NCBI RefSeq assembly: GCF_928368155.1
Contig: NZ_CAKMRU010000001.1
Span: 812,001-876,000, forward strand
Length of the DNA stretch: 64,000 bases
Direction of reading: 5' to 3'
Origin: Anaerococcus ihuae
GTDB taxonomy: Bacteria > Bacillota > Clostridia > Tissierellales > Peptoniphilaceae
The notes beneath the pieces were generated by a model. That model saw only the letters and a list, made by a program, of their open reading frames with translations. It ran no database searches and was not told the origin of the DNA. This document shows, piece after piece, positions 596 to 19,849 of this stretch. Positions within the stretch are counted from its first letter, which is position 1. The number at the start of each line of letters is the position of its first letter. Both the position numbers and the translations under genes were made by a program.

Positions 596-911
596 TTAAA
601 TCATTCCAAAATGCTCTAAAGCATCTTCGATTGCTTTTTCTTTTTCTTCTGGGCAATTTGGCACTCTTTGATTTTCTTTCTTACTAAAATTATAATTTTC
701 TCTCTCTATTAGACCATGTTTCCTTTTTATTTGTGCAATATATAGGCTTGAAACTTTTAGTCCGTATTTATCTAACACATACTTTTTAATTTCTCCATAA
801 GTTGCGCCTTTTGAAAAGTCAATTTCAGATAATTCATCTTCCCCTATTTCTATATCTAAATGATGTTCTGTATTTAGTTTGTACAACAGAGCTACCGTCT
901 CCACATGCGTT
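596..911 (-). pseudogene. Displaced 3' end of an rlmCD-type 23S rRNA methyltransferase gene
   Basis: The frame carries HVETVALLYKLN, the C-terminal signature of TrmA/RlmD-type uracil-5-methyltransferases, then about 90 residues rich in Glu and Lys ending KAIEDALEHFGMI. From memory, such a tail follows HVETV in many clostridial RlmCD-like proteins; its role is unknown to me. The SAM-binding and catalytic regions are missing. The frame stays open to an ATG at 989-991, but everything upstream of the HVET codons is unrelated to methyltransferase and overlaps the recombinase gene in another frame. I read it as a target-gene tail pushed away by an element that integrated at the HVET codons, not as a functional small gene. 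Confidence 0.7.
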
Positions 912-2654
912 GTCTTTTGATTGGGAACATAATTTTTTATCCTCGTCATTCTTGTAGGAGCACAATTTATTAATGTCATTGTCTTTGGCATTTTTTCTTT
1001 TATCTTTGAAATTATTAGAATCTTGACTATCTTTAACTCCTGTTTTGAAATAGAATGTTAAGTCATAAGGATGAACTGTTCCGTCTTTGTCAATTCTACC
1101 CACCACGACTTTATCAACTATGCTTTCAAATACTGTTCTATTAAATTCCTCTATAATTTCTTTGTTTTCTAAGACCTTTTTAAATTGCTTTAGTCTTTCT
1201 TTAATAGAGTTTTCATCTTTGATAGTTAGCTCTAGTGTTTTCTTTTCATCAAGTAATTCTTCTTTTTGTTTTGTAAGTTTTTTATACTTTTTAGCATAAA
1301 CTTCTTCGTCTATACTATCTTCTAAATGAAGATCAACTAACTTTCTTTCTTGACTAATGATTCTGTTTAATTCATTTTCTATCTTTTTCAAATCTTTGAC
1401 TAAAGTATTATCATTTATTTCTTCTTCAACAATTTTTAAAAAGTCATCTATTACTGTTGAATCTGCATGGCATAATTGCCTATAGCTTTCAACAAATGCT
1501 TTTTCTATTGCTGCTTCTTGTATTCCTTTTGAATGAGGGCAATATTTTTTACCTTTTTTAGTTGACCTTACACATTGCCAGTTTATTTTTTTGTAAATTG
1601 AACTTGTATGCCAAGTTCTTCTTGAAAGTATTTCTCCACAAAATCCACATTCAAGCATACTTGAAAAAGCATATTGTCTTGATAGTTTTTCTCTTTTTCT
1701 ATCCTTGTTAGCTATGGTGTTTCTGTTTTGTGCTCTCCTAAGTCTAATCTCCTGTGCCTTTTCAAAATCTTCTCTTGATATAATTGGCTCGTGATGATTT
1801 TCAATGTGATATTTATCAGATTCACCAAAGTTTGCTAGTCTTCTTTTTGTTATGGGATCAACTGTGAAGGTCTTTCCCATTAGTATATCGCCAATATACT
1901 TTTCATTTTTAATTATTCCTAACACTGTAGTATCAGACCATTTTGTTTTACCTCTCGGGGTGAGATATCCTTGCTCTTCTAGTTCTCTACCAATGACTGA
2001 GCCGCCATTGCCTTCTAAATATCTTTTAAAGATATATCTAACAATTTTGGCTTCTTCTTCATTTATAGAGATGCTTTTTGTTATAGGGTCATAATCATAT
2101 CCAAGGCAACCTTGAAAACCAATAAGCTCCCCTTTTTCCATTTTCATTTTCAGTCCTTTTTTTACATGGGCTGAGGTATTTTCTACTTCTTGTTGAGCTA
2201 CTGAACTTAATATTGTTAATAGTAACTCTCCATCCATTGTCACAGTATCTATATTTTCTTCTTCAAATACTACTCCAACATTGTTTTCCTTTAATAGTCT
2301 TACATACTTTAGGGTATCTAATGTATTTCTAGCAAATCTTGATATAGATTTAGTAATTATCATGTCTATATCTCCATTTTGGCAATCACTTATTAGCCTC
2401 ATGAAATCTGCTCTTTTAGTAGCAGTTGTTCCTGTTGTTGCTTCATCTGCATATATACCAGCCAGAGTCCAGTTCTTATTATTTTTTATTAGATTTGTGT
2501 AATAATTAACTTGCGATTTATATGATTCAAGTTGATCTTTACTATCAGTGCTAACTCGACAATATGCTGCAACTCGTTTTAAATCTAAATGTAGTGCATT
2601 TCTATTTCTAGCTCCTGTATTTGAAGCTTTTATTAATTTTACTTTAGTATTCAT
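834..2654 (-). CDS. Large serine recombinase (site-specific integrase)
   Basis: This 606-residue protein is likely to insert and excise the neighbouring mobile element. The N-terminal resolvase domain (about residues 27-170) has the nucleophile motif AYCRVST with Ser35, then SISRFARNT and a Gln/Glu-rich helix before SAHVKKGLKMK. The recombinase domain covers about 185-290. A zinc ribbon follows with CGFCG and a distal CVRS...CPH pair, then a long Lys/Glu coiled coil. A GGAGG site precedes the ATG. It lies next to an att-like site (891-910) as integrases usually do. Oddly, its last roughly 20 codons run through the displaced methyltransferase DNA in another frame, so the stop codon comes from the target side of the junction. 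Confidence 0.9.
   Translation of the reverse strand: MNTKVKLIKASNTGARNRNALHLDLKRVAAYCRVSTDSKDQLESYKSQVNYYTNLIKNNKNWTLAGIYADEATTGTTATKRADFMRLISDCQNGDIDMIITKSISRFARNTLDTLKYVRLLKENNVGVVFEEENIDTVTMDGELLLTILSSVAQQEVENTSAHVKKGLKMKMEKGELIGFQGCLGYDYDPITKSISINEEEAKIVRYIFKRYLEGNGGSVIGRELEEQGYLTPRGKTKWSDTTVLGIIKNEKYIGDILMGKTFTVDPITKRRLANFGESDKYHIENHHEPIISREDFEKAQEIRLRRAQNRNTIANKDRKREKLSRQYAFSSMLECGFCGEILSRRTWHTSSIYKKINWQCVRSTKKGKKYCPHSKGIQEAAIEKAFVESYRQLCHADSTVIDDFLKIVEEEINDNTLVKDLKKIENELNRIISQERKLVDLHLEDSIDEEVYAKKYKKLTKQKEELLDEKKTLELTIKDENSIKERLKQFKKVLENKEIIEEFNRTVFESIVDKVVVGRIDKDGTVHPYDLTFYFKTGVKDSQDSNNFKDKRKNAKDNDINKLCSYKNDEDKKLCSQSKDNACGDGSSVVQTKYRTSFRYRNRGR
891..910 (-). other. att-like site 1 (HVET codons)
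   Basis: Read on the minus strand this is ACGCATGTGGAGACGGTAGC, matching the sites at 15541-15560 and 18501-18520 around CAYGTGGAGAC. Protein-level similarity to the methyltransferase starts here and continues only to the left. It is the putative left attachment site of the larger element, directly beside its recombinase gene. Confidence 0.6.
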
Positions 2655-2709
2655 TTTACCTCCTTCCCATTTTGTATCTTTCTACAGTGTTATTATATCA
2701 CAAGATTGA

Positions 2710-2847
2710 CTACTTTCTATCTCTCTTCTTATAATCATTTTCTAGCCTGTTCTTAATTTTTGTATATTCCTTATCATTAATTAATTTAAGATCATAAAGT
2801 CTACATAAAATAGCAACTCTCATACTATAAATCTTTATTGCTTGCAT
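2710..2847 (-). CDS. Small basic protein upstream of the recombinase
   Basis: A 45-residue frame (MQAIKIYSMRVAILCRLYDL to the end KKRDRK) has a good AGGAGG site seven bases before its ATG and lies 55 bases upstream of the recombinase, on the same strand. The segment YDLKLINDKEYTKIKNRLEN looks like a short helical SHOCT-like motif, which is a loose resemblance only. Small proteins in this position are common in serine-recombinase elements, and some are recombination directionality factors, but nothing in the sequence proves that role. It is probably co-transcribed with the recombinase. Confidence 0.6.
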   Translation of the reverse strand: MQAIKIYSMRVAILCRLYDLKLINDKEYTKIKNRLENDYKKRDRK

Positions 2848-2985
2848 TTTAACCTCCTATGTAAGTTAATTTTTTTACCTTGTTAAGTGGATTAAATTTA
2901 AAATATACTAATCTCACATAATCAATTTCAAGAATCTTCACACTTCAAAGTATTTTGATTCTTATAGAAAGATGACAAATACCCC

Positions 2986-3001
2986 TCACTTTATAAAGTG
3001 A
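2986..3001. repeat. 16-bp perfect palindrome
   Basis: TCACTTTATAAAGTGA is its own reverse complement. It lies in the 306-base gap between the small protein upstream of the recombinase and the end of the ABC transporter operon. It has no T-run, so it is not a simple terminator. It could be an operator for the recombinase genes. Otherwise the gap 2848-3153 holds only the terminator at 3075-3109. Confidence 0.4.
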
Positions 3002-3074
3002 AATTTGCCCTCTTTGGTAACCAGAATTTTTATTTTTTTATAGTATTTTTGAGTTTCAATGATTAATTTGAACA

Positions 3075-3109
3075 TAAAAAGAGGACTTATGCTATTAGGC
3101 ATAAATCCT
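3075..3109 (-). terminator. Rho-independent terminator of the transporter operon
   Basis: On the minus strand AGGATTTATGC pairs with GCATAAGTCCT across a six-base loop, with one G-U type mismatch, and CTTTTTAT follows. It lies 45 bases past the last ABC gene, so it would end the long operon that starts at the tetR promoter near 12.86 kb. Confidence 0.65.
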
Positions 3110-3153
3110 ATTTTCTAAATTTTACTGTTTAAAGACTTTAATATTTCTTCCTA

Positions 3154-4899
3154 TCAATTATTTAATTTCCATGATTCCGCCTTAGCTTTTGCATTTATAA
3201 GGTCAGAATAAAGTCCATTATTTTTAATCAGTTCTTCATGATTTCCACGTTCTACTATTTCCCCATCTTTTAAAACTAAAATTTGATCTGCATTTCTTAT
3301 GGTTTTTAGTCTGTGGGCAATCATAATTACTGTTTTGTTTTTTGTTAATGATTCAATTGCTTCTTTAAGTTTATCTTCATTTTCTGGGTCTATATTTGCT
3401 GTTGCTTCATCAAATATAATTATGTCTGCATCTTTTAGCATAGCTCTTGCAATAGAAATTCTTTGTTTTTCTCCACCAGATAGGCTTGCTCCACCTTCCC
3501 CAATGATAGTGTCATATCCTTCTGGTAAAGCTTCTATAAATTCATGACATCTTGCTTTTTTTGCAGCTTCTACAACTTCTTCATGGCTTGCATTTTGTTT
3601 TCCAAATTTTATATTATTTTCAATTGTATCTTCAAATAGATATACATCTTGAAATACCATGGAAATTGAATCCATAAGGTTTTCTATCTTATAATCTTTA
3701 ATATTCTTTCCACCTATTAAAATTTCGCCAGAGTTTACATCCCAAAATCTTGCTATGAGATTACAAAATGTGGTCTTACCAGATCCAGATGGACCAACTA
3801 TGGCAGTCATGGTATTTTCTTTTATCTCTGCTGATACATTTTTTAAAATTGGTCTGTCATCATAAGAAAAGCTGACATTTTTAAAGACTATATCATGATT
3901 TTTTATAGGCTCTGTAATACTTCCTTCTCTCATATCAGGCATAGAGTCGATAAAACCTACAGAATCTATGGCATTTTCGCAAGCTCTTAGGATTGCCATG
4001 TTTGATCCTGCCCCGATTAAGCCTTCAAAGATAATAAAGGATGCCATAATCATAAGAATTGTTTCAGCAAGTGGAAGTTCACCAGATAAATTTAATTTTA
4101 AAGATACATAGACCATAGCTACTGTTGTTATTCCCATTACAATTCTTTGAATAACTGTGTATGGTGCTACAGATTTCTCCAGGTCTAAGAGTATTCTTGA
4201 TGTATCTTTTATAGACTTTCTCAAAGCCCTGTTATTTTCTCCACCAAGATTATAAGATTTTATAACCTGCATTCCTTGTAAAGTTGCTAATACTTCTTTT
4301 GTAAGTCTTGTCTGCGTTTCTGTCATTTTGTCTGCATTAGCTGATGATTTTTTCTCCATCATTGATGTAACGATGAAAAATACTACCACACCTGCTACTG
4401 CAACAAACCCTACCTTTACATTAAATATTAAAGTTCCAAGGAGAAAGACTAAAGTATTTAAAACTCCACCAAGTACAAGAACCAGTAGCATAGGCACCCA
4501 TTGCTCTGCTTGGGAAAGATTAGATGTGGCAATACTTGTAAGTCTTCCCAGTGAAAAGTCTGAAAAGAAACCCATGGGAACTCTTTTTATCTTCTCGCCT
4601 ATTTCTATTCTCTTATGGGCAGCCATAAAATATCCCGCGTGAGTTTGTGCCATTTGAGATGATTTTTGTGTCATGATTTTTCCAACAAGGGAAACTATTA
4701 AGATTCCAAGGCAAATAAAGATTGCCTTATAGTCTAAAGTTTTAGAGAATATATTTACTAGCATATAGTAAATTGCACCAAACTCAAGGGCATTAAATAC
4801 TGCGTGCAAAAATCCAGCGAGAATGGATTTCTTAATATTTACCTGTTCTTCTTTTGAAAAATTCCATATCTTTTTAAACACATTAAGCATTTTCATCAC
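3154..4899 (-). CDS. ABC exporter-fold protein, permease fused to ATPase (second half-transporter)
   Basis: The 581-residue protein has a six-helix ABC membrane domain (about residues 20-310) fused to a nucleotide-binding domain. The latter shows Walker A GPSGSGKTT, Q-loop VFQDVYLF, signature LSGGEKQR, Walker B IIIFDEATANID and switch IAHRL. It overlaps the preceding half-transporter by 17 bases, so the two almost certainly form a heterodimer. Exporter-fold pairs next to nickel/peptide-type importers include the YbtPQ and IrtAB class, which take up metal-siderophore complexes, and ordinary drug or peptide exporters. The sequence alone does not decide between import and export. It is the last gene of the TetR-led operon. 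Confidence 0.85.
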   Translation of the reverse strand: MMKMLNVFKKIWNFSKEEQVNIKKSILAGFLHAVFNALEFGAIYYMLVNIFSKTLDYKAIFICLGILIVSLVGKIMTQKSSQMAQTHAGYFMAAHKRIEIGEKIKRVPMGFFSDFSLGRLTSIATSNLSQAEQWVPMLLVLVLGGVLNTLVFLLGTLIFNVKVGFVAVAGVVVFFIVTSMMEKKSSANADKMTETQTRLTKEVLATLQGMQVIKSYNLGGENNRALRKSIKDTSRILLDLEKSVAPYTVIQRIVMGITTVAMVYVSLKLNLSGELPLAETILMIMASFIIFEGLIGAGSNMAILRACENAIDSVGFIDSMPDMREGSITEPIKNHDIVFKNVSFSYDDRPILKNVSAEIKENTMTAIVGPSGSGKTTFCNLIARFWDVNSGEILIGGKNIKDYKIENLMDSISMVFQDVYLFEDTIENNIKFGKQNASHEEVVEAAKKARCHEFIEALPEGYDTIIGEGGASLSGGEKQRISIARAMLKDADIIIFDEATANIDPENEDKLKEAIESLTKNKTVIMIAHRLKTIRNADQILVLKDGEIVERGNHEELIKNNGLYSDLINAKAKAESWKLNN

Positions 4900-6604
4900 C
4901 CCTTAAATTTGCAGCATACATTTCCTTATAAAGTTCTGATGACTTTAATAGTTCTTCATGAGTACCATAAGAATTTAATTTGCCATCTTTAATAACAAAT
5001 ATCCTATCTGCATCAACAATTGTCTTTAGCCTATGAGCGATTATGATTAAAGTTTTACCCTTAACTAGATTTGCCAAGGCGTTTTGTATGAGAGCTTCAT
5101 TTTCAGGATCTATATAAGAAGTTGCTTCATCTAAAATTACAATTGGTGCATTTTTTAGCATGGCACGAGCAATAGATATCCTTTGTCTTTCTCCTCCAGA
5201 TAGATGACCTCCACCTTCGCCAACTCTTGTATCATAACCGTTAGATAGATTCATAATAAAATCATGGCAGGCAGATTTTTTACATACATCTATAATTTCT
5301 TCGTCAGAGGCATTCTTATTTCCAAGCCTAATATTTTCCTTTATAGTCATATCAAAGAGGAAATTGTCTTGGGATACAAAAGAAATAAGTGAAGACAAGT
5401 TTTCGAGCGACACATCTTTTGTTTCTACTCCGCCAATTTTAATAGATCCCTTATCTACATTCCAAAATCCAGCAATAAGTTTTGCTATTGTGGACTTGCC
5501 TGACCCAGAAGGACCAACGAGGGCTGAAACATTAGATTCTTTTATTTCCATAGAAAGATTATCAATGACTTTCTTTTTTCCATCGTAAGAAAAGTCTACA
5601 TCTTGAAGTTCTATATTATAGGATTCTATTTTTTCTCCCTTGTCAATATTTTCTAACTCTCTTGAATCTAAAATTTTTCCTATTTCAGAAGTTATAGTTG
5701 ATATTCTTGACATATCATCCATATAGTTCATGATTTTTAAAATGCTAGAAACCGTAGCAAAGGATAAGACGATTAAGGTAATTAAATTTCCTAAATCAAT
5801 ACTTCCATTTATATAAAATAAAATCCCAAAGGGTATGATTGTAATAATTCCCATAGGAGAAAGTAATCTACCTATGGCAACCCTATTCATAGATTCACCC
5901 ATCCAGTTATAATAAAAGCTTGCATTATCATAAACTGCATCAGCATATTTTTTATAAGATGATTCGCTTTGATTAAAGGTCTTTATTACTTCTATCCCAT
6001 TTATATACTCAACAATGGAATTATTCATATGTTGACCAATAGCAACTGACTTTCCAAACATTTCTTTATAATGAGCGTTCATAACAGACATCATAATAGA
6101 CATTCCTACCACAAATGGAATTAGTGATAATAAAGTTAAACGCCAATCTAATGTAAACATGTAAATAAATAATAGAATAGGTCCTACTAAATTTGCAGTA
6201 AATTCTGGCACTAGGTGGGCAAGTGAAGTTTCCATAGAATCAACTTGCTCAACTATAATATTTTTTAATTCTCCAGATGTTCTTGAAAGAACATCTCCCA
6301 GTGGCATCTTAAAAAGTTTCTTAGAAATATCATTTCTAATTTCTCCTAATGAATTAAAGGTTGCGGTATGGGAAATACTTGTTGATATTCCTGCTGCCAC
6401 TTCTTTAATAACAAATGTTATTAAAATATTTATGCATAGGGGAGTATATAAATTCATATCATTTGCACCATTAATTAAGTTTACAACGATTTTTGCCATG
6501 TATATATAGGAAAAAAAACCTGCCACCACTCCCACTATCGCAAGTAGGACGGATGCAAAATATGATCCTTTTCTTTTACTTACATATTGTTTTATTAAAT
6601 CCAT
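4883..6604 (-). CDS. ABC exporter-fold protein, permease fused to ATPase (first half-transporter)
   Basis: A 573-residue half-transporter with an N-terminal six-helix domain and a C-terminal ATPase: Walker A GPSGSGKST, signature LSGGERQR, Walker B IVILDEATSYID, switch IAHRLKT. The intracellular loop segment MPLGDVLSRTSGELKNIIVEQVDSM is well conserved in this class. Both members of the pair keep a catalytic Glu after Walker B, so both ATP sites may be active. It starts 12 bases after the hydrolase gene and overlaps its partner. Partnering and operon position suggest a shared substrate with the hydrolase and the nickel/peptide-type importer upstream. Confidence 0.85.
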   Translation of the reverse strand: MDLIKQYVSKRKGSYFASVLLAIVGVVAGFFSYIYMAKIVVNLINGANDMNLYTPLCINILITFVIKEVAAGISTSISHTATFNSLGEIRNDISKKLFKMPLGDVLSRTSGELKNIIVEQVDSMETSLAHLVPEFTANLVGPILLFIYMFTLDWRLTLLSLIPFVVGMSIMMSVMNAHYKEMFGKSVAIGQHMNNSIVEYINGIEVIKTFNQSESSYKKYADAVYDNASFYYNWMGESMNRVAIGRLLSPMGIITIIPFGILFYINGSIDLGNLITLIVLSFATVSSILKIMNYMDDMSRISTITSEIGKILDSRELENIDKGEKIESYNIELQDVDFSYDGKKKVIDNLSMEIKESNVSALVGPSGSGKSTIAKLIAGFWNVDKGSIKIGGVETKDVSLENLSSLISFVSQDNFLFDMTIKENIRLGNKNASDEEIIDVCKKSACHDFIMNLSNGYDTRVGEGGGHLSGGERQRISIARAMLKNAPIVILDEATSYIDPENEALIQNALANLVKGKTLIIIAHRLKTIVDADRIFVIKDGKLNSYGTHEELLKSSELYKEMYAANLRGDENA

Positions 6605-6616
6605 AAAATCCCTTCC

Positions 6617-7285
6617 TTAATTTGTCATTAAAAAATTATAAATTTCTTTCGCCACAATTTCCCAATCGTTGTCAAGCATCATATCATGACAAATATCATT
6701 TAAAACTATAATTTTACTTTTTAATCTTTTCCCTGTCCTAATTGAAAATTTAACTGGTACACAATTATCATTCCAAGATGTTAAAACCAGTGTGGGTATG
6801 CTTGTAATGCTTTTGTTTGTTTTAAACCCTTTTAAAACTTGTATTTGTGCTTTAATTGGATCTTTCCTCAGTTTATTAATATAATATTCTTTATTATCTA
6901 CCCTATTTTCTGAAAAAAATAGGGTTTCTCTCGACTTTGTAAGCATTTTTATCCCTATAAACATCATTGATGTTAAAACATTTTTTATAGGTAAAGGTGA
7001 AATCAATATAATTTTATAGACTTTATTTGAATTAAATTTCGCGTAATTTAAAGCAACTAAACTTCCCATAGAATGGGCTACCAAAACAACTTTGTTATTA
7101 CATTTTTTTACTGTACTGTCTAAAATATCAATATAATCTTTTATTTCTATATCTTTGCTATTTTCCCATTTAAAATCTATTGCAAATGTTCTATGCCCTT
7201 TAACATTTAAGTAATTAACAAAATTATTCCAACACCACGCTCCATGCATTGAGCCATGTAAAAATATAATATCGATATTATTCAT
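6617..7285 (-). CDS. Alpha/beta hydrolase
   Basis: This 222-residue cytoplasmic protein has an alpha/beta hydrolase layout: oxyanion region HGSMHGAWCW near residue 10, nucleophile elbow AHSMG near residue 70, an Asp in NDNCVP near residue 173 and the catalytic His in DICHDMM near residue 197. No signal peptide is seen. Its substrate is unknown. Sitting between a NikA-like binding protein and a pair of ABC exporter-fold proteins, it might cleave an imported ester- or amide-linked ligand such as a metallophore or peptide, which is inference from context. The ATG at 7283-7285 follows a GGAAAC-like weak ribosome site. Confidence 0.8.
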   Translation of the reverse strand: MNNIDIIFLHGSMHGAWCWNNFVNYLNVKGHRTFAIDFKWENSKDIEIKDYIDILDSTVKKCNNKVVLVAHSMGSLVALNYAKFNSNKVYKIILISPLPIKNVLTSMMFIGIKMLTKSRETLFFSENRVDNKEYYINKLRKDPIKAQIQVLKGFKTNKSITSIPTLVLTSWNDNCVPVKFSIRTGKRLKSKIIVLNDICHDMMLDNDWEIVAKEIYNFLMTN

Positions 7286-7308
7286 TGCTAATGTTTCCTT
7301 TATAATAT

Positions 7309-7343
7309 AGTCTCTTTAGAAATGGAATATTTCTAAAGAGACT
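7309..7343 (-). other. 15-bp perfect stem-loop between binding-protein and hydrolase genes
   Basis: AGTCTCTTTAGAAAT and its exact complement flank a five-base loop, 17 bases past the binding-protein stop codon. No U-run follows on the minus strand. Such a stem can protect the 3' end of an abundant binding-protein message or act as a partial stop inside an operon. Confidence 0.55.
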
Positions 7344-7360
7344 TACATAAATATTATAAC

Positions 7361-12214: not shown

Positions 12215-12808
12215 TCAGCCTAATAATTCAGGAAATTTATTTTTCAAATATTCTTCTAACATCTTTTTGATTGTTTCTTTATTTTCAATAAAAATTTCTT
12301 TTTGATTTAAACTTTCATATCCTAAAATCAAAGTATTTACAAAGGTCACTAAAAACTCATCTTCAAAAATAGATGATAGCTTATCGTTTGGAGGAAATGT
12401 AGACGATAAAATTTCTGTGTTTGTTTCTTTTAAATTTTCAAACATTTCACACAATCTTTTATCTTCATTTTGTAGTTTCAAAAAAATTGCATAGATGCTT
12501 TTAAATTCATTTTCATCATAAATTCTTTCCATCATCATCTCAGTAATTGCGTCTAAAGTCGTTAACTTAGATGTGTCGATAGTTTTGCTTTTTTCTCCTC
12601 TATATTTGATTCCTAATTTCATAAAATCATAAATCATTTCGTAGGTTGATCCATAATGATAGTAAACACCACCTTTACTTAAACTTACTTTTTCTATAAC
12701 ATCTTCCATAGTTGTATTTTGGAAACCCTTTTCTAAGAAACATTTTTTTGCCGCTTCCAGAATTTCTAACTTCCTTTTTTCTCCAACTTTCAATTTTTTA
12801 TCATTCAA
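12215..12808 (-). CDS. TetR-family transcriptional regulator, first gene of the transporter operon
   Basis: I take the TTG at 12806-12808 as start because AGGAGA lies seven bases upstream. The frame is open to another TTG at 12824-12826 but that has no ribosome site. The 197-residue protein has the TetR helix-turn-helix (residues about 12-60: ILEAAKKCFLEKGFQNTTME, then DVIEKVSLSKGGVYYHYGS) and a helical ligand domain. It lies downstream of its own promoter and a palindrome overlapping the start site, so autorepression that also controls the transporter genes is likely. The inducer is unknown. Confidence 0.85.
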   Translation of the reverse strand: MNDKKLKVGEKRKLEILEAAKKCFLEKGFQNTTMEDVIEKVSLSKGGVYYHYGSTYEMIYDFMKLGIKYRGEKSKTIDTSKLTTLDAITEMMMERIYDENEFKSIYAIFLKLQNEDKRLCEMFENLKETNTEILSSTFPPNDKLSSIFEDEFLVTFVNTLILGYESLNQKEIFIENKETIKKMLEEYLKNKFPELLG

Positions 12809-12835
12809 AACTTTATCTCCTGTCAATAAATAATT

Positions 12836-12851
12836 CCGACGCTACCGTCAG
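12836..12851 (-). promoter_or_regulatory. Putative TetR operator
   Basis: GACG and CGTC flank a four-base centre, and the outer bases are partly symmetric (CTGACGGTAGCGTCGG on the minus strand). It lies between the -10 box and the tetR start codon. A bound repressor here would block transcription of tetR and the following eight genes. Confidence 0.5.
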
Positions 12852-12855
12852 TTTT

Positions 12856-12884
12856 ATTGTAACTCATTTGATAATTAATTTCAA
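12856..12884 (-). promoter_or_regulatory. Sigma-A promoter of the tetR-transporter operon
   Basis: On the minus strand the -35 TTGAAA (12879-12884) and -10 TACAAT (12856-12861) are 17 bases apart. The expected start point falls just upstream of or inside the palindrome at 12836-12851. Confidence 0.7.
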
Positions 12885-12950
12885 TACATGAAGGATTTTA
12901 AAATTTAGTAATCTTATTTAAGATATTTGCTTGAACGCCCTTTATACTTC

Positions 12951-13097
12951 TTTATTAATTTCTTTAAATGCGGTATAATTAATAAAACTTAATACACGCT
13001 TGACGCTTATAACTTTAATAGCAAGCACAGTAAGTGTACGGACACTTACGAAAAAATTAATGGAGCAGACCTTTACGGAATGCTCCATTTTTTTATT
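12951..13097 (+). ncRNA. Candidate short RNA or leader upstream of mobC
   Basis: A weak -35 (TTTATT, 12951-12956), 17-base spacer and TATAAT (12974-12979) would start a plus-strand RNA near 12986. It contains a stem-loop GTAAGTGT/ACACTTAC with an ACGG loop (13030-13049) and ends at a terminator-like hairpin GGAGCA/TGCTCC followed by a T-rich run (13062-13097). This gives about 110 bases without an open frame. It could be a stand-alone RNA, perhaps controlling mobilisation, or an attenuated leader of mobC. Confidence 0.35.
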
Positions 13098-13106
13098 TTT
13101 ACCTTG

Positions 13107-13127
13107 TTAGGGAGAACCCTAAGACCC
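13107..13127 (+). other. Putative oriT hairpin
   Basis: TTAGGG and CCCTAA form a stem with an AGAA loop, followed by GACCCCG, directly upstream of a MobC-type gene and a relaxase start. Small mobilisable elements usually place the nick region here. Identification rests on position and symmetry only. Confidence 0.4.
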
Positions 13128-13155
13128 CGAAATATATTTTATAAAGGAGAATAAA

Positions 13156-13512
13156 ATGGCAAATAGATTTAGAAATGAAAGAATAGAAATAAAACTAACT
13201 AAAGAAGAAAAAGAAGTTTTTGAAAAGAAAATGAAACTTGCAAATTGCAAAACTATGTCCCACTTTCTTAGAAAGTGCGTATTAGAAAAAGAAATTTATG
13301 TAGTAGACTTAGAACCATTTAGAAACCTACAATGGCTGCTTTCGAATGCAACAAATAATATAAATCAGATTGCAAAAGCTACTAATACAACTGGTGTTAT
13401 TTACAAAAATGAAATTGAATCAATTAATAAGCAGATAGAAAAATTATCAAGAGAAATATGGCAGATCCATTCCCTACTTCTTAATAAATCAAAAGAAAGT
13501 TCTGGTGATTAG
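13156..13512 (+). CDS. mobC: MobC-type relaxosome accessory protein
   Basis: The 118-residue protein starts with a ribbon-helix-helix-like segment (RNERIEIKLTKEEKEVFEKK, then CKTMSHFLRKCVL) and continues with LSNATNNINQIAKATNTTG, a hallmark of MobC/MbeC-type mobilisation proteins that help the relaxase bind oriT. A GGAGAATAAA ribosome site precedes the ATG. The relaxase frame starts one base after its stop codon, as in intact mob operons, but is cut off after 48 residues. MobC is therefore probably an orphan here. Confidence 0.8.
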   Translation: MANRFRNERIEIKLTKEEKEVFEKKMKLANCKTMSHFLRKCVLEKEIYVVDLEPFRNLQWLLSNATNNINQIAKATNTTGVIYKNEIESINKQIEKLSREIWQIHSLLLNKSKESSGD

Positions 13513-13513
13513 T

Positions 13514-13660
13514 ATGGCAATTACAAAAATACATCCTATAAAATCAACTCTAAATTTGGCAATAGATTATATAACCAAGAGTGAAAAAACTGATGAAAAA
13601 ATCTTGGTATCTTCATTCAAATGTCATCCATCTACTGCCCTTCAATTTATAAAAATATGA
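13514..13660 (+). pseudogene. Truncated MobA/VirD2-type relaxase (N-terminal 48 residues)
   Basis: The frame begins MAITKIHPIKSTLNLAIDYI and continues to CHPSTALQF, the usual start of PF03432-type relaxases including the segment just before the catalytic Tyr/His region. It then runs into a stop (TGA 13658-13660). The remaining several hundred residues, with the HUH metal-binding motif, are absent, and the sequence beyond is unrelated broken genes on the other strand. A deletion removed the relaxase body. Confidence 0.75.
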
Positions 13661-13768
13661 AAGATCATATTCTATAGCATATTTTGAAACAAAAAAAGAA
13701 GTAGATTAATTCTACTTCTCATACTTAATATTTTCTTGTCTATACTATTCCAAACAGTATCTGTTAAA

Positions 13769-13880
13769 TTACATCTCATTAATTCTATTTGAAATAATTA
13801 TCACTACTTCAATAATCTTATTAGAGGTCAAATCACCGATATACTTATTTTCAAGGTATAGGTCATAGAAGTCTCTCATT
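13769..13880 (-). pseudogene. Internally deleted remnant of an AbiEii-type toxin gene
   Basis: The frame reads MRDFYDLYLENKYIGDL, then TSNKIIEVVIIISNRINEM and stop. It matches two separate parts of the intact AbiEii at 16742-17584 (MRDFYDLYTLYK and ENKYIGDLTFDKVVDVVITISNRVSEM) joined by a deletion of about 60 codons. Similarity continues past the stop codon into the non-coding flank (compare 13745-13770 with 16722-16742), so a second abiE locus once lay here. Confidence 0.75.
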
Positions 13881-13889
13881 CATATTGTT

Positions 13890-14130
13890 TTACTTAAACA
13901 AATCAGAGTGTGAGCCAGTTCTTACTAAAGATAATACTAAAACATCTTCTATTTTTTCATATATCAGCAAAAAATCGTGCTCTATATGACATTCTCGAGT
14001 ACCCTTGTAAATTCCAGCTAAAGAATGATCTCTATATCTTTCATCAAGGGCTTCATCTTTTGTAATTTTCTCAATAATTTCAAACAGTTTTCAATATCTT
14101 TCCCTTGTTTTTTAGCCTGCTTTGTCCATT
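13890..14130 (-). pseudogene. Frameshifted YafQ/RelE-type mRNA interferase toxin remnant
   Basis: Two frames together give a YafQ-like toxin: KWTKQAKKQGKDIE in one, then after a one-base shift near 14085 LFEIIEKITKDEALDE, RYRDHSLAGIYKGTRECHIE and HDFLLIYEKIEDVLVLSLVRTGSHSDLF. The conserved catalytic-side segments (DHSL, RECHI, LIY, RTGSHSDLF) are recognisable. The N-terminus is missing or replaced and no antitoxin gene is visible beside it, so this is not expected to make an active toxin. Confidence 0.7.
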
Positions 14131-14361
14131 TTTCTCTTCTGCCATAGTTAGGAGAATATTCTCTTTTTCTTTTCTTAACTCTTCCACCCTGTCTGCAAGT
14201 TCAGCGTAGTCTTTCTGTGCATTAGCGACTTTTAAAAGCTCCTCTTGAAATTTTAGCATTTCATTGTCTATTTCCTCTATTCCACTACTTCCATCACTTG
14301 TGATGGCTTTTTCTATATTCTCTTTTATTATTTCTTTTAATTCGCCGTTATAGAATATCGG
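14080..14361 (-). pseudogene. C-terminal remnant of a second large serine recombinase
   Basis: The frame begins at PIFYNGELKEIIKENIEKAI and runs through IEEIDNEMLKFQEELLKVAN, AQKDYAELADRVEELRKEKE to a stop at 14080-14082. The coiled-coil pattern LKVANxxxDYxELAD is characteristic of the C-terminal region of large serine recombinases and differs from the recombinase at 834-2654. No resolvase domain is left. The last part overlaps the yafQ remnant in another frame. Bases 14362-14617 show no further recognisable gene. Confidence 0.6.
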
Positions 14362-14617
14362 TTGATTGATTACTATTACAAATACTTATTACAAATGTCT
14401 TTCATTTATTTTATTATTACGTTAGCATCACTTAAAATTAAGTTGTCCATATGCTTGAAATCGAATGTTTAAATAAATTATCCATAAATTTTAAAGAATT
14501 TAATTTCAAAAGTTTTCATTTCACAATTTAATATAATAGTCTTGATGATAAAAAAATAACTGCTTCCATCCACTAATATTTCCTAAACCTTTACATTAAT
14601 AATGCTCATATATATTT

Positions 14618-15385
14618 TTAGTCTTCCTCAAAATCAATAATAAATTCAGATATCACTGGTTGCAATTTATATAATGAACTTATTGCGTATGACATTTGAT
14701 CATATAAGATCTCATAACTATTTCTTTCTGAAAAAAATATTTTTTTTGATTCACTTTCAATTTTTCTATTCATGTAATTTATTCGATCATCATCGGTGGT
14801 TAAAGGATTTTCCTCCAACTTATTTGTTTCTAAAAGTATATTTTGGCAAATTTCAGTATCTTGTATTATATCATCCATTAATTCTTCAAAATCTGGAAGT
14901 TCAATAGATATCTTTACTTTATTAAACTCAATAGTACTTTCTAACAATTTAAACCTATGCTTCTTCGTGTTTATTTTTTTAATAAGGTATTCGTATTTAT
15001 TAATAGTATTTAATCTATAATCAGCAACAAATTCCCTAAACAAATCGTATCTTTTGATCATAGTTGAAATTTTTGAAATATCTTCTAATAAATAAAAAAG
15101 TTTATTTGACAACTTTAAATTTTCGATTTTATTCAAATAATCAATTATTTCAAAAGAAATTTCTATCATGTTATCTATTTGTCTTATTACTAATGTGTTT
15201 TTATGATTTCTTACTTGTTGTAAAATTTCAGCATTTTTTAATTCAAGTTCTAATTTTCTATTTTCTTTCAATTCTTTTTTTAGTATATTTTTAGCAACAA
15301 CTGCTGAAACAATTATAGCTAGCACTGATATACATGTAGAAATAACAAATTCAATATTATTTATCACATATTTAATAGGAATCAC
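14618..15385 (-). CDS. Uncharacterised membrane-anchored helical protein
   Basis: I do not recognise this 255-residue protein. One strong membrane helix lies at residues about 12-32 (FVISTCISVLAIIVSAVVA), and the rest is Lys/Glu-rich and predicted helical by eye, with long coiled-coil-like stretches (residues 35-60 and 195-225). The topology suggests a short outside N-terminus and a large cytoplasmic helical domain. It stands alone at the right end of the larger element, next to the att-like site at 15541-15560. Element ends often carry defence or addiction genes, but no enzyme motif is visible. Confidence 0.6.
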   Translation of the reverse strand: MIPIKYVINNIEFVISTCISVLAIIVSAVVAKNILKKELKENRKLELELKNAEILQQVRNHKNTLVIRQIDNMIEISFEIIDYLNKIENLKLSNKLFYLLEDISKISTMIKRYDLFREFVADYRLNTINKYEYLIKKINTKKHRFKLLESTIEFNKVKISIELPDFEELMDDIIQDTEICQNILLETNKLEENPLTTDDDRINYMNRKIESESKKIFFSERNSYEILYDQMSYAISSLYKLQPVISEFIIDFEED

Positions 15386-15503
15386 CTCAATAATGTTATA
15401 CTCACTAACTACCTATGTACTTATTAATTAATAATCTATTTTTCAATATCTACTATTTTTAATAACTTGAATTATTCAGATTACAAAAAATAGTATTGTC
15501 CCT

Positions 15504-15574
15504 CTATTTAAGATATTTCCCTTCGATTCTTGACATCAATACTACAGTCTCCACGTGTGATACATAGGCTTTTT
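15504..15574 (-). pseudogene. Second displaced 3' end of rlmCD
   Basis: On the minus strand the frame reads AYVSHVETVVLMSRIEGKYL-Lys-stop (stop 15504-15506). HVETVVLMSR is a standard end of RlmD-type proteins. Upstream of these codons the frame gives only about 20 unrelated residues (EISTKYEVNKIQKK) and then a stop. It differs from both the intact gene end (HVETIALIQKM) and the remnant at 596-911, so it is an independent displaced end. The gap 15386-15682 holds nothing else that I can identify. Confidence 0.6.
15541..15560 (-). other. att-like site 2 (HVET codons)
   Basis: On the minus strand TCACACGTGGAGACTGTAGT shares CRYGTGGAGACNRTAG with the sites at 891-910 and 18501-18520. It separates the larger accessory block from the abiE block. 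Confidence 0.6.
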
Positions 15575-15682
15575 TCTGAATCTTGTTTACTTCATACTTT
15601 GTTGATATTTCATTATTTTGTTGTCAATTCTATCTACTTCACCATTGATTTTGATTAGGCTATTTTGAATCAATATTTCTTA

Positions 15683-16615
15683 TTATTCATTCAAATGAAG
15701 CTCTCCCCAACACAAATAAAATAAATCATCTTCTTGAAGAGATAAATAAACCTTAAAAATTGTATTTAACATTTTTTTATTTTCTATAACTTCAAACTCG
15801 TAACTGCTATCTTTTAGTTCAGTGTTTTCTCTTATTTTATCCGTAACATAGTATAAAGCTAAATTGACATCACAGGCATTATTGTTCTTTTTTAAATATT
15901 CTATAGTCAACTCTTTTACTTTATCAGAATAGTTTTCAATGAAAAATTTTTCAAAATCTTTGTACGATTTTTCAAATCTCCAGGATATAATCTCATTCAT
16001 ACCTATTGAAAAACTAGATAAGTTAAGACTTGTAATGAGAATATCATAGTCTGTATTCCAATCAGTAAGAATTTGTCTTCTATATTTAATCACTTCTAAA
16101 AGTTCTTCTTTATCATTTTTTTTAATACAGCAATTTATTTTATCTATAATTTCGAATTCTCTTAAAAGATACTCTATGTAATCATATTCTAAATAAAACG
16201 AACAACTTTCATAATAATCAAGCCAATTTTTCGGATAAATAATAGGATAAAACATACCATTTTCTATTCTTGATATTTGGTTATTTACTGATTTTAGAAT
16301 TTGAGACAATATTGCCGCAGATTTTTTTGCTAATATATATCTATCCCTACCTTCTTTATTAATTGTGTAAAAAACTGCAAAAAAAGATATAAACGTTGCG
16401 CCCATAATTCCCAAGATAGTTATTTGATTATCCGTAAAATTTTCAGAAAAAATAATCAGAATAACTAGTCCCACTACAATTAACGCAAATATACTCATTA
16501 CACCTCTAAATGATAATGGTTTATTATTTCTTACAACGTTAAAATTGTGACTCGACATGACTGATTCTAAAATTTCAACATCATCAATTTTAAATTTATT
16601 TTTTTTATTAAACAT
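15683..16615 (-). CDS. Uncharacterised two-helix membrane protein
   Basis: The 310-residue product is not one I recognise. Two hydrophobic segments at residues about 39-58 (VMSIFALIVVGLVILIIF) and 66-85 (ITILGIMGATFISFFAVFY) are followed by roughly 220 residues of mixed helix with aromatic and acidic character (PKNWLDYYESCSFYLEYDYI). The start has a good GGAGGG site. It lies 126 bases downstream of abiEii in the same direction and could be co-transcribed with the toxin-antitoxin pair. No known catalytic motif is visible, so the name must stay hypothetical. Confidence 0.65.
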   Translation of the reverse strand: MFNKKNKFKIDDVEILESVMSSHNFNVVRNNKPLSFRGVMSIFALIVVGLVILIIFSENFTDNQITILGIMGATFISFFAVFYTINKEGRDRYILAKKSAAILSQILKSVNNQISRIENGMFYPIIYPKNWLDYYESCSFYLEYDYIEYLLREFEIIDKINCCIKKNDKEELLEVIKYRRQILTDWNTDYDILITSLNLSSFSIGMNEIISWRFEKSYKDFEKFFIENYSDKVKELTIEYLKKNNNACDVNLALYYVTDKIRENTELKDSSYEFEVIENKKMLNTIFKVYLSLQEDDLFYLCWGELHLNE

Positions 16616-16722
16616 TTAACCCTCCATTTTTATTTAAATTAACAAAAAAATAATATTAAATAGCAGGCCATAAAATAATTTTACATAGGACAATCGGATA
16701 TTTAAAATATTTATGTAATTTC

Positions 16723-16737
16723 CCAGACAGTGTCTGG
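16723..16737. repeat. Short perfect palindrome after abiEii
   Basis: CCAGACA and TGTCTGG flank a single central base, four bases past the abiEii stop codon. No U-run follows. A degraded version of the same sequence lies at 13745-13765, next to the abiEii remnant. Confidence 0.45.
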
Positions 16738-16741
16738 AATA

Positions 16742-17584
16742 TTACATCTCACTAACCCTATTTGAAATAGTTATCACTACATCAACAACCTTATCAAAGG
16801 TCAGATCTCCAATATACTTATTTTCACTGAGATATACTTCCCACAAGGATCTTTGGTATGAATCTTCTTTTATGTCCTCGATTATTTCCTCATAGTCTTT
16901 CATTATCTCCTGACTTCCTCTTTTGTCGGAAGTTCTTTCTATTGCTTCTTTTAAAATTTTATAATCTATCTCATCTTTTTTTAATTTGTAGAGGGTGTAT
17001 AGGTCGTAAAAGTCTCTCATTCGTGTTGTTGTTATATTTCTTCTGATTATGGTTTCATATTTTTCTGCGAGAATTGTTTCTAATGGATATGCCATTATTT
17101 TTATATCTTCTTGGCTAAAGATACAGGGATAAGTATATTCTATTTCCCTTGGCGTTATTGCATCTCCTGTTGTTAGGTCTAGTTTCATCGGGTTTTTGGT
17201 CTTTCCAACATTGGCTATTAATGATATTCTAAAGTTCTCGTACTCGTCCTCTTCCCTAATATAACTAATGTCTTTTATTTCAAATCTTATTCCATCATCG
17301 ACATCTATATTTATAATTTCATTTACGATTTCTTTTATTTTTTCTTCTTTTAGGGGTATGCCTTTTATGGTTGTGTCCATATCCATAGTTGTTCTATTTT
17401 CAATTCCAATTAAGGAAGATATTAGGAATCCTCCTTTTATTACAAAATTATTTTTGTAATTTGATTTGGATAGCCTTTCTAAAAATCTTTCGAAGAAATA
17501 TATTTGCAGAACTTCTTGTGACTTTAGATTTTTCTTCTCTGCCATGCTTCTTATCTTGCCCTTTATACTCTCGATATTAATCAC
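16742..17584 (-). CDS. abiEii: AbiEii-type nucleotidyltransferase toxin
   Basis: This 280-residue protein belongs to the AbiEii/toxin family of DNA polymerase beta-like nucleotidyltransferases, which in characterised members modify tRNA 3' ends and stop growth. Visible motifs are FVIKGGFLISS (phosphate-binding GG-S-type turn, residues about 46-56), the metal Asp pair in TTMDMDTTIKG (about 66-76), ETILAEKYETIIRR with the conserved Lys, and MRDFYDLYTL. It overlaps the antitoxin gene by four bases (ATGA). The pair is a typical type IV system that can stabilise elements and block phage. Confidence 0.9.
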   Translation of the reverse strand: MINIESIKGKIRSMAEKKNLKSQEVLQIYFFERFLERLSKSNYKNNFVIKGGFLISSLIGIENRTTMDMDTTIKGIPLKEEKIKEIVNEIINIDVDDGIRFEIKDISYIREEDEYENFRISLIANVGKTKNPMKLDLTTGDAITPREIEYTYPCIFSQEDIKIMAYPLETILAEKYETIIRRNITTTRMRDFYDLYTLYKLKKDEIDYKILKEAIERTSDKRGSQEIMKDYEEIIEDIKEDSYQRSLWEVYLSENKYIGDLTFDKVVDVVITISNRVSEM

Positions 17585-18168
17585 GATAATACCTCCATGT
17601 ATTTTCTAATTTCATTTTCTATTTTAAATAATCTACTGTATTTTATGAGTCGTCTTAGATTTTTATTTTGTGATTTAAAGTATCTTTTTATGGCTTCTGT
17701 AAAAATTTGCTTATCTATTTTTTCTCTGTCTATTATGATATCGCAAATTGTTCGATCTATATCGTAAACTGGAATAAGGTTGCCTTGTGGTGATTTTATT
17801 TCTGTCTTTCCTAGTTCGTATAAGTCTTTTTTTACATAGTGAACTTGTAGATCCTCATATCTTTTTTTGATATGGCTTGCATTATAGCCTTGGGGCACAG
17901 ATATATGAAATACATTTGGAGTTCTATCTGATAGGTCGTGGAGATAGAGGGCTGTTTGATGTGAAAATATAATTCGATTACTATTTGATGATATTAAAAC
18001 AAAATCGTCTATTACTTTTCCTTTTAATTGATATAGACCTGGTCTTAATCTTTCTAATTGTCCGATTTTTGTTAATTCTGATAGATTATGCCTAGTATAT
18101 CCAAGTTCTTCTGCTTCTTTGTTGGTGATTACTAAATTTTCTTGGATATATTCTTTAAGTGTATTCAT
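17581..18168 (-). CDS. abiEi: AbiEi-type antitoxin and repressor
   Basis: A 195-residue partner of the downstream toxin. It begins with the winged-helix region LVITNKEAEELGYTRHNLSE (residues about 12-32), then LRPGLYQL and FSHQTALYLHDLSDRTP, both standard for the AbiEi_1/AbiEi_4 family, and VYDIDRTICDII. AbiEi proteins neutralise AbiEii without stable binding and repress their own operon through inverted repeats. Such a repeat covers the promoter here. GAGGAGG lies eight bases before the ATG. Confidence 0.9.
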   Translation of the reverse strand: MNTLKEYIQENLVITNKEAEELGYTRHNLSELTKIGQLERLRPGLYQLKGKVIDDFVLISSNSNRIIFSHQTALYLHDLSDRTPNVFHISVPQGYNASHIKKRYEDLQVHYVKKDLYELGKTEIKSPQGNLIPVYDIDRTICDIIIDREKIDKQIFTEAIKRYFKSQNKNLRRLIKYSRLFKIENEIRKYMEVLS

Positions 18169-18188
18169 AGTCCGCCTCCTCTCGTTTA

Positions 18189-18214
18189 CGCTTTTATTAT
18201 ATGTTATAAAAGCG
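18189..18214 (-). promoter_or_regulatory. Putative AbiEi operator (inverted repeat)
   Basis: CGCTTTTAT and ATAAAAGCG are separated by eight bases and overlap the -10 box of the abiE promoter. This fits the known negative autoregulation of abiE operons by AbiEi. Confidence 0.6.
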
Positions 18215-18224
18215 AATATGTAAA
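18196..18224 (-). promoter_or_regulatory. Promoter of the abiE operon
   Basis: The -35 box TTTACA (18219-18224) and perfect -10 TATAAT (18196-18201) are 17 bases apart on the minus strand, about 28 bases before the abiEi start. Confidence 0.75.
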
Positions 18225-18356
18225 GTCGGCTTGTGAATGTTTCATATTTTGAAAAGGATGTAACGAATCCTTACTCCCTTTAACAAAAAAAGAGCAGCCT
18301 ATTACGCTACTCTTATAGAAAGTACAAAATGGGTTAATTATATTTTTTGTGTTTCC

Positions 18357-18497
18357 TCATACTAGTCTCAAAACTACTCTTACATCCATATAGTTTTTTT
18401 GGGTCTTTTTGACGTATCCTTCTTCATCTTTATCGAAGACAAAATGCTTATAAAACTGCTTAAAATGCAGGATTTCTATATTTACATCTTTTGTATC
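18357..18497 (-). other. Short open frame crossing the end of rlmCD (probable remnant)
   Basis: In a frame different from rlmCD, the codons DTKDVNIEILHFKQFYKHFV then FDKDEEGYVKKTQKNYMDVR run to a stop at 18357-18359. No start codon or ribosome site is apparent. It resembles the way the recombinase gene crosses att-like site 1, so it may be the tail of a lost element gene, but I cannot match it to a family. The rest of 18225-18356 shows nothing clear. Confidence 0.3.
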
Positions 18498-19849
18498 AAC
18501 GCTATAGTCTCCACATGCCTTGACCTAGGAAACTGGTCAAAGACTTGGTAGTTTTTTATTTTGTAGCCGTTTTCTTTGAAAATTTCTAGGTCTCTTACTT
18601 GGGTTTTTGGGTTGCAGGAGATGTAGATGAATTCTTCTGGGTCTATATCCATTATTTTTTTGATTGCTTTTGGGTTTATTCCTTCTCTTGGTGGATCTAG
18701 GACTACTATGTCGTATTTTCCTTTTACTAGGTCGATTTTTTCTAAAACGTCTCCTGCTATAAAGTCTATATTTTCGATTTGGTTTTCTTTTGCGTTGTCA
18801 AAGGCTTTTTCTACTGCTTCTTCTACTATTTCTATGCCCACAGCCTTATTTGCAGCTTTTGCAAATAATTGGGTTATGGTTCCTGTGCCTGAGTATAAAT
18901 CTAAGACATTTTTATTTTTATCTAGGCTTGATAATTCTATGGCTTTTTGGTAGATTTTTTCTGCTGTAAATACATTTGGTTGGAAGAATGAAAATGGGGA
19001 AATTTGAAATTTCAACTCATTCATTTTTTCTTCTATATATTTTTTCCCAAATAAAAGTTCCATTGAATCTACTTTTACTGCATCTGATAAACTGTCATTA
19101 ATCACATGATAAATAGAAACAATTCTTCCCTTTGTTTTGGCATTTAAAAGACTATTGGCAAATAAATCTCTTCTCATTGGATCAAAGGACGTATCTGAGC
19201 TTGTCACAAGTATGACCATTATTTCTCCAGTGTGCATGGCTTTTCTTACTATTAAATTACGCAAAAGTCCTGTGTGATCTTTCTTGTGGTAAAAACTTGC
19301 ATTTCTTTTTCTGAAATATTCTTGAACATATTTTCTAATTGTCTCGAAATCACCATCGACAATATTGCATCCATCTGTATCGACAATTTCATAAAATCTA
19401 TTTTGCCTGTGAAGGCCCAAAACAAGTGGTCCGTCCTTGTATGAATCTCCAAAAGTGTATTCCATTTTATTTCTGTATTCTTTTATTTTTGGGCTTCTAA
19501 CAATGGATAAATCTGAAACATCTATGTGAGCATTTTTCAAAAGTTTTTTTATCATGTTATGCTTTAATAGAAGTTCTGTTTCATATCCCATTTTTTGGTA
19601 AGAACATCCTCCACATATTCCTGCATGAGGGCAAAATTCTTTGGAATTTTCAATTTTTGATTCTTCCAAAACTTCCATAAATTTTCCTTTTTTATTTTTC
19701 CCCCTGTTTTTGGTGATTTTTACCCTGACATTTTGTCCCAAAACTCCGCCCTTAAATTGGACTGTTTTTTCATCATCAATTTTTCCTATAGAAATATTTG
19801 GATAGGACATATCAATTATTTCTACATCTTTTATCGCTTTTTCTCTCAT
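18482..19849 (-). CDS. rlmD: 23S rRNA (uracil-5-)-methyltransferase, RlmD/RlmCD family
   Basis: The 455-residue TrmA-family enzyme would methylate C5 of uracils in 23S rRNA using SAM. An N-terminal TRAM-like domain (about 8-60) is followed by the iron-sulfur cysteines in CPHAGICGGCSYQ. The SAM region shows VLDLYSGTGTIT, then DPPREGI, and the catalytic Cys in YISCNPKTQVRDL. The protein ends HVETIALIQKM. Those HVET codons form att-like site 3, so the last seven codons probably come from the inserted element. The start follows the helicase gene directly, suggesting co-transcription. Confidence 0.9.
   Translation of the reverse strand: MREKAIKDVEIIDMSYPNISIGKIDDEKTVQFKGGVLGQNVRVKITKNRGKNKKGKFMEVLEESKIENSKEFCPHAGICGGCSYQKMGYETELLLKHNMIKKLLKNAHIDVSDLSIVRSPKIKEYRNKMEYTFGDSYKDGPLVLGLHRQNRFYEIVDTDGCNIVDGDFETIRKYVQEYFRKRNASFYHKKDHTGLLRNLIVRKAMHTGEIMVILVTSSDTSFDPMRRDLFANSLLNAKTKGRIVSIYHVINDSLSDAVKVDSMELLFGKKYIEEKMNELKFQISPFSFFQPNVFTAEKIYQKAIELSSLDKNKNVLDLYSGTGTITQLFAKAANKAVGIEIVEEAVEKAFDNAKENQIENIDFIAGDVLEKIDLVKGKYDIVVLDPPREGINPKAIKKIMDIDPEEFIYISCNPKTQVRDLEIFKENGYKIKNYQVFDQFPRSRHVETIALIQKM
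18501..18520 (-). other. att-like site 3 inside the intact rlmCD gene
   Basis: The minus strand reads AGGCATGTGGAGACTATAGC, 17 bases from the stop codon. It matches sites 1 and 2. The 3' end of this gene is a known integration target (rum/rumA) for serine-recombinase ICEs and phages of streptococci and other Firmicutes. Confidence 0.65.

Follow-up and report, generated by a model that had tools for sequence, protein, structure and literature searches.

The stretch of Anaerococcus ihuae DNA analysed here (the window: 64,000 nucleotides, positions 812,001 to 876,000 of contig NZ_CAKMRU010000001.1) poses a simple question: why is the 3' end of one methyltransferase gene, rlmD (also called rumA), found in it three times? 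The original prediction, made from the window alone, took the three copies for the trace of two successive insertions of serine-recombinase elements into the same gene end. Our analysis makes it highly probable that several families of elements encoding large serine recombinases (LSRs) use the 3' end of rlmD as their attachment site and share one crossover, that such elements stack there, and that their integration swaps the C-termini of recombinase and methyltransferase.

The sequence CAYGTGGAGACNRTAG is present in exact form on the minus strand at 892-907, 15542-15557 and 18502-18517, and no further copy was found in the window with up to two mismatches allowed. In 100 dinucleotide shuffles the mean number of matches was 0.15 and the maximum 2, i.e. 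three were reached in none of them. The corresponding minus-strand sites are denoted A (891-910, proposed crossover at 900-901), B (15541-15560, proposed crossover at 15550-15551, the following left end reading VVLMSRIEGKYLK) and C (18501-18520, proposed crossover dinucleotide GA at 18510-18511), and all three encode His-Val-Glu-Thr (HVET) in the rlmD frame. Site C lies in the intact rlmD gene (18482-19849, minus strand), whose 455-residue product ends in HVETIALIQKM and scores 286.9 bits against TIGR00479 (cut-off 183.55). In these points, i.e. the three exact sites, the common tetrapeptide and the intact methyltransferase at the right, the original prediction was correct.

The array extends leftwards past the window. 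Positions marked as own coordinates equal 22001 minus the window position and run along the reverse strand, leftwards from the window; on this scale a fourth site, D, lies at 33894 and a degenerate fifth site, E, at 44258. There are thus at least five sites and at least four units over about 40.8 kb from C to E, and the leftward order is RlmD, unit X (about 2.96 kb, 15551-18510, minus strand, between sites B and C), unit Y (about 14.65 kb, 901-15550, minus strand, with the recombinase LSR-a at its right end), unit Z (about 12.8 kb, with a second recombinase, LSR-b), unit W (about 10.4 kb) and a further left end. RlmD is separated from the conserved chromosomal flank by 60 kb (flank at own 63510). 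In G025 the RlmD stop lies 1.3 kb from the same flank and in G012 it lies 2.6 kb from it (G numbers denote genomes and L numbers loci), so that the comparison with near-uninterrupted relatives, proposed in the original prediction as a check, came out in its favour. Similarity to G013 begins at own 51205, which places the end of the array somewhere between own 44.3 and 63.5 kb.

Site B can be judged from both of its sides. The stretch around it was matched in 54 of 249 genomes, mostly by short pieces elsewhere in the stretch. X-side sequence without Y ends near site B in four genomes (G085, G012, G153, G015), and the left end of Y without X starts at most 10 bp from B in G010, G119, G006, G017 and, over 46 bp, in G132; in G158 and G076 the match to the Y left end begins some 80-100 bp further inward. 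On direct reading, the Y left end is preceded in G119 by an RlmD body, in G006 by LSR-a and in G017 by LSR-b; in G010 the preceding sequence looks by eye like a methyltransferase fragment, the partner being unassigned in the frame analysis described below. Site B is a true junction, because either side is found without the other, joined to different partners, elsewhere among the genomes.

Single units are likewise found next to RlmD. In G020 unit Z is joined directly to RlmD (98.8% identity over 9,423 bp) and is followed by a Y-type unit, the reverse of the order seen here, and in G029 a Y-type unit adjoins RlmD. The genome of A. ihuae itself contains a second target (L226, G000:C1:415600-435500), where a Y-type element lies at a paralogous, RlmC-like methyltransferase; it is 99.1% identical to unit Y over 5,712 bp and the match ends at window position 892, i.e. 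at the site. The LSR-a of this second element is identical to that of the window over the 248 residues searched.

These comparisons also bear on a rival explanation that we regard as quite possible, if not the one we would expect. The array may have been built elsewhere, e.g. on a plasmid, and have entered the chromosome as one or two blocks, in which case the sites would be genuine and would hold no record of successive insertions in this lineage. G030 has the whole X-B-Y segment with 100% identity over 2,801 bp, at a distance of about 5 kb from its own RlmC-like paralogue, so part of the array may indeed have arrived as a block. The same is suggested by pAPRE01 of A. prevotii, where Y-like cargo, LSR-a, the tail of unit Z introduced below, LSR-b and AbiEi stand in one row, and by the near-identical relative of unit Y at the second methyltransferase. 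However, unit Z in G020 and the Y-type unit in G029 adjoin RlmD, which is directly explained by integration of single units, and the unit order in G020 is unlike the order here.

The comparison with relatives further shows where the end of the intact rlmD gene comes from. The stretch from just before HVET through the AbiE genes of unit X is 95.8% (G029) and 92.9% (G027) identical to the window, whereas the RlmD proteins of these two genomes are only about 63-64% identical to that of the window; G010, G028 and G002 have pieces about 91-92% identical there, with RlmD at 60-62%. Since the identity of this stretch is far above that of RlmD, the IALIQKM end, i.e. the last 7 residues of RlmD, is element-borne, and the idea that IALIQKM is native was dropped. 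We call the element end in question the type-1 left end (18360-18518, minus strand); read in a second frame, it specifies the C-terminal LSR-a peptide (ACGDYSVDTK...RLV). Judged by eye, the type-1 end overlaps RlmD in 13 of the genus's 31 genomes, and in two others (G030, G003) it is separated from RlmD by no more than about 100 bp. RlmD remains an open gene with a new tail, and we would expect the enzyme to stay active.

The recombinase genes take part in the exchange as well. LSR-a (834-2654, minus strand; Pfam Resolvase, Recombinase and zinc ribbon domains; PHROG integrase, 9.5e-141) adjoins site A, as the original prediction stated, but its gene also runs through the site, so that the last 22 or so codons lie past the crossover and are part of the next unit. 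Both Y and Z have a single serine integrase at one end with the att site inside its gene, and the insertions are at the rumA/rlmD 3' end with short direct repeats. Since every recombinase gene extends across the site at which it acts, integration leads to an exchange of 3' ends between the recombinase and methyltransferase genes. The mechanism that we propose is as follows. The left end of an element would become the new 3' end of whatever lies upstream, and the right end, in units with a recombinase, would be the 3' part of the element's own recombinase gene. Elements would stack because the left end of one can join to the right end of another, and the units would presumably excise again. In the case of LSR-a the left end would be coded in two frames, one for RlmD and the other for LSR-a. 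In the case of LSR-b, of unit Z, the two frames would coincide, and the swapped piece would be a conserved 99-residue tail (599-895, minus strand, VALLYKLN...HFGMI), which is the left end of that unit. The sequences following A and B are not different methyltransferase ends, as had been proposed, but interchangeable left ends of elements, and the conclusion that three C-termini imply different donors was wrong in kind, one of these ends being a recombinase domain.

This frame rule was examined in 197 distinct contexts (137 with the tail, 55 with the type-1 end and 5 with the site-B end), which were collected by searching for the ends and are not a random sample. The tail is in frame with methyltransferases (72/72) and with LSR-b (9/9), and out of frame with LSR-a (18/18). 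The type-1 peptide is in frame with LSR-a (4/4) and out of frame with both LSR-b (11/11) and methyltransferases (26/26, of which 25 are in one frame and 1 in the other). The variable sites of the type-1 peptide fall mostly on third codon positions (5/5/21 over the three positions, 40 each, 28 distinct sequences), with the other frames closed, and those of the tail do likewise (25/8/47, 99 each, in 23 sequences that are distinct but close). In the Glu codon of HVET the GA is nearly invariant, G occurring at a frequency of 1.00 and A at 0.99 in the 137 tail contexts and both at 1.00 in the 55 type-1 contexts. We suggest that GA is the shared crossover dinucleotide of several LSR families; if it is common to LSR-a and LSR-b elements, this would allow both to stack.

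The tail was found in 68, LSR-b in 38 and the type-1 peptide in 95 of the 249 genomes. At 31 LSR-b loci the recombinases are alike up to about ..QVE and then continue with short methyltransferase-type ends (28), the 99-residue tail (2) or an early stop (1). When 60 kb around each of 45 LSR-b matches are considered, 27 have a tail upstream on the same strand (median distance 13.0 kb) and 8 have one downstream, but on the opposite strand there is none for any of the 45. In G127 RlmD is tailed and LSR-b ends in VESVCLMSRV. Sisters of the same genus that share the 40-residue RlmD stretch but are untailed have the RlmD ends VETVCLMSRKD and VETVVLMSRKM; the ends are alike in protein but the DNA behind them differs, so that this example is suggestive only.

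A few observations weigh against the reading developed so far and should be discussed together. No recombinase gene was found in unit X, and the right end of unit W holds only a 624-bp remnant of LSR-a (95.5% identical). The upstream partner could not be assigned in 53 of the 197 contexts, and for 18 of the 45 LSR-b matches there is no tail upstream within 60 kb on the contig. All four LSR-a/peptide fusions that were read are interrupted, by a stop at the junction (L225), by a stop in the last third (L222, L223) or by a frameshift (L224), and none of them is an intact LSR-a with the whole peptide. In viral contigs most matches span only tail residues 31-99, and an rlmD-type junction in an LSR-b-type frame is present at just 5 of 38 loci. 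Finally, site E is degenerate and the sequence after it (..LLSRK) recurs, together with a terminator-like repeat, where RlmD ends in G001 and at the far end of G007's Y-type unit. We considered this to be the native rlmD end, an idea contradicted by two matches: G001 is 91.3% identical over 206 bp to the end of a paralogous gene in G161, a member of another genus (L382), and ends of this kind follow recombinases in other loci. Judged by these matches the site-E end is probably one more mobile end; G001 is then no proven empty site, and G025 and G012 are the better comparators. LMSRK-type ends with the terminator (L051:17639-17738, L382, L033, L057) are common to RlmD, the paralogue of the other genus and recombinases, and are probably a further mobile left end.

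On balance, the near-uninterrupted loci of G025 and G012, the junction at B, the units of G020 and G029 and the recombinases that end at sites support tandem site-specific integration at the rlmD 3' end. The number of two insertions was too low, given at least four units with sites D and E beyond the window, and the order of the events would have to be deduced from the layout.

The tail deserves separate attention, as it occurs on two kinds of protein. In viral contigs it is part of LSR-b-type recombinase frames at 36 of 38 loci, sometimes with two in a row. In five viral contigs (L238, L239, L240, L242, L250) one serine recombinase directly follows another, and both have the tail domain or the beginning of it. 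In nine of 11 phage-collection records the context of the tail was read, namely recombinase fusions (3), methyltransferase fusions (2) and standalone or cut tails (4). Among genomic relatives the best 80 of 281 gave 88 frames, of which 52 are methyltransferase fusions, 1 is a recombinase (Faecalibacterium prausnitzii), 34 are short and 1 is of another kind; one of the short frames (L303) lies at the edge of a contig and cannot be interpreted. Tails with an identity of at least 97% were seen in records titled Hoylesella buccalis, Gordonibacter and Fusobacterium naviforme (L292, L275, L276), which may be due to transfer between phyla or to misassigned contigs.

The tail is most likely an original C-terminal domain of the LSR-b recombinase family. 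The reverse, i.e. that it is an old part of RlmD that elements picked up from methyltransferase genes, would fit the 52 methyltransferase fusions just mentioned, which are spread across Clostridia and beyond, but we consider it improbable. The tail adjoins RlmD in just 2 of the 31 genomes of the genus (G013, G020), and these two tails share 98% identity, whereas the RlmD proteins of the two genomes match that of the window at 89% and 64%; moreover, 36 of the 38 viral loci have the domain on recombinases, most of them without an rlmD-type junction. The related idea that the tail is the displaced native end of RlmD was dropped, as the RlmD proteins of relatives are mostly without it. As for the weakest alternative, ordinary paralogous or duplicated methyltransferase ends without any integration, which the original prediction had named as grounds for its own refutation, HVET at all three sites and the resemblance of the site-B end to other rlmD ends would be in its favour, yet it is already contradicted and next to impossible, since neither A nor B is preceded by a methyltransferase body, the gene of a recombinase extends across A and the two sides of B occur apart.

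Searches with 26 tail members gave no convincing match in Pfam (best E 0.0078), and the tail found none in NCBIfam (best E 0.019). Among PDB sequences phmmer found nothing up to E 1 and a profile search gave one insignificant match (E 0.35), while a PHROG search gave one weak match to a PHROG of unknown function (5.2e-05). The AlphaFold model contains helices at residues 33-44, 50-59 and 83-95, with a mean pLDDT (model confidence) of 69.5 and values below 50 for residues 1-28, and in Foldseek searches with it neither the 85 PDB matches (up to E 10) nor the 66 from BFVD reached E 0.001. The tail is thus predicted, with modest confidence, to be a small helical domain without structural match. 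We speculate that it might set the direction or activity of LSR-b and so make integration a self-acting switch, although we think this rather unlikely. The free element would make a tailed recombinase, which integrates; integration would move the tail from the recombinase gene to the host RlmD, and the integrated element would make a tail-less enzyme of changed activity. The host methyltransferase would then carry the missing domain, perhaps as a partner or an inhibitor in trans.

It is useful to compare the array with known systems. SCC elements of staphylococci use the 3' end of rlmH and Ccr serine recombinases. The two systems are similar in that serine recombinases form composite arrays at the 3' end of an rRNA methyltransferase gene, but the target gene is another one, and LSR-a and LSR-b were not identified as CcrA, CcrB or CcrC, the best scores (CcrB, 137.9 and 218.3 bits) being far under the cut-off of 900. 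More is shared with the streptococcal integrative and conjugative elements (ICEs) described by Ambroset et al. 2016 (PMC4701971; this and the following papers are cited from partial text), which have a single serine integrase, are inserted in rumA and exchange the 3' ends of rumA and integrase with a change of frame in both. The target, the recombinase at one end with attR inside, the reciprocal exchange and the alteration of both C-termini are the same, and the reciprocal exchange as such is therefore not new. The frame change fits LSR-a, whereas LSR-b and the methyltransferase have a common frame, and the piece that moves is a conserved domain. Prophage Mx8, as cited in the same paper, has attP inside a tyrosine integrase gene, and its integrated form was reported to be less active; here too integration replaces the integrase C-terminus, but the recombinase is of the tyrosine type and the text at hand mentions no domain handed to a host enzyme. 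Stacking at shared sites is known from tandem mobile genetic elements at rum and rplL of Streptococcus suis (PMC5053989), from ICESp1109 at rum with erm(TR)-type cargo (PMC11911784) and from accretions of one ICE and two integrative and mobilizable elements (IMEs) in streptococci (ICE-IME1-IME2, PMC5357655). In the available parts of these papers there are two, at most three elements and typically three sites, unlike the at least four units and at least five sites found here, with one unit lacking a recombinase. Other reports concern the phage m46.1, which lies at rum (PMC4288039), a prophage located at RlmD (PMC12785378), IMEs whose presence in rumA is presented as a disruption (PMC5704250) and Tn1806, which is similar to pAPRE01 (PMC3055811).

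With regard to cargo, unit X encodes the antitoxin AbiEi (17581-18168, minus strand; PF13338, 37.6 bits, cut-off 25; PADLOC AbiEi, 3.8e-69) and the nucleotidyltransferase toxin AbiEii (16742-17584, minus strand; PF08843, 138.8 bits, cut-off 22.5; PADLOC AbiEii, 5.8e-104), whose genes are adjacent, as is characteristic of AbiE type IV toxin-antitoxin systems. Unit Y contains, at 13743-13889, what is left of another abiEii gene, with 82-88% similarity to the intact one; this includes its 3' end (13743-13853, minus strand, an 82% repeat of 16716-16826). Two open reading frames (ORFs) border site B, one of 255 residues (14618-15385) and one of 310 residues (15683-16615); they are possible defence cargo and had no match in Pfam, PHROGs or PADLOC.

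Unit Y contains a MobC/NikA-like mobilization gene (13156-13512, plus strand; PF21983, 46.4 bits, cut-off 27), a TetR-like gene, a peptide/nickel-type ABC importer that scores under the equivalog cut-offs and two ABC exporters. An ORF at 13439-13660, without Pfam match, we take to resemble a shortened relaxase. No conjugation module was found among the scanned ORFs of X and Y, a set that did not include the ATPase-like ORFs 9007-9717 and 9699-10547 and small ORFs. Elements related to unit Y are present in G029, G007, G008 and pAPRE01. The latter (L161, 43612-59691), typed as conjugative, has the same modules in a row, i.e. LSR-a, two tails, MobQ, LSR-b and AbiEi, together with the Y-like cargo. 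Unit Z, left of the window, contains besides LSR-b a gene for the 23S rRNA methyltransferase Erm(A) (L031:17092-17823; 510.5 bits, cut-off 475) in the same unit whose left end is window 599-895. Unit W has ABC-transporter-like ORFs, as read by eye.

As far as our searches reach, two things are new, namely the frame rule and the fact that a conserved domain of a recombinase is exchanged in frame; no such exchange was found in the accessible text of the literature on rumA/rlmD-site elements within reach of the search. In that text insertion at rumA/rlmD appears as disruption or as a frame-changing exchange, whereas in the present array the methyltransferase gene remains open and receives a new tail, and what one of the families exchanges is a conserved domain common to the recombinase and the host rRNA enzyme. 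This would explain the long C-terminal extension of many RlmD-type proteins seen here as recombinase-derived, and the tail gives a sequence mark for elements at this site. Loss of the tail would be expected to change the recombinase, which makes the system a testable case of integration controlling the form of the integrase itself. More generally, the locus shows how arrays can be built by different recombinases, in this organism beside a resistance gene that lies outside the window.

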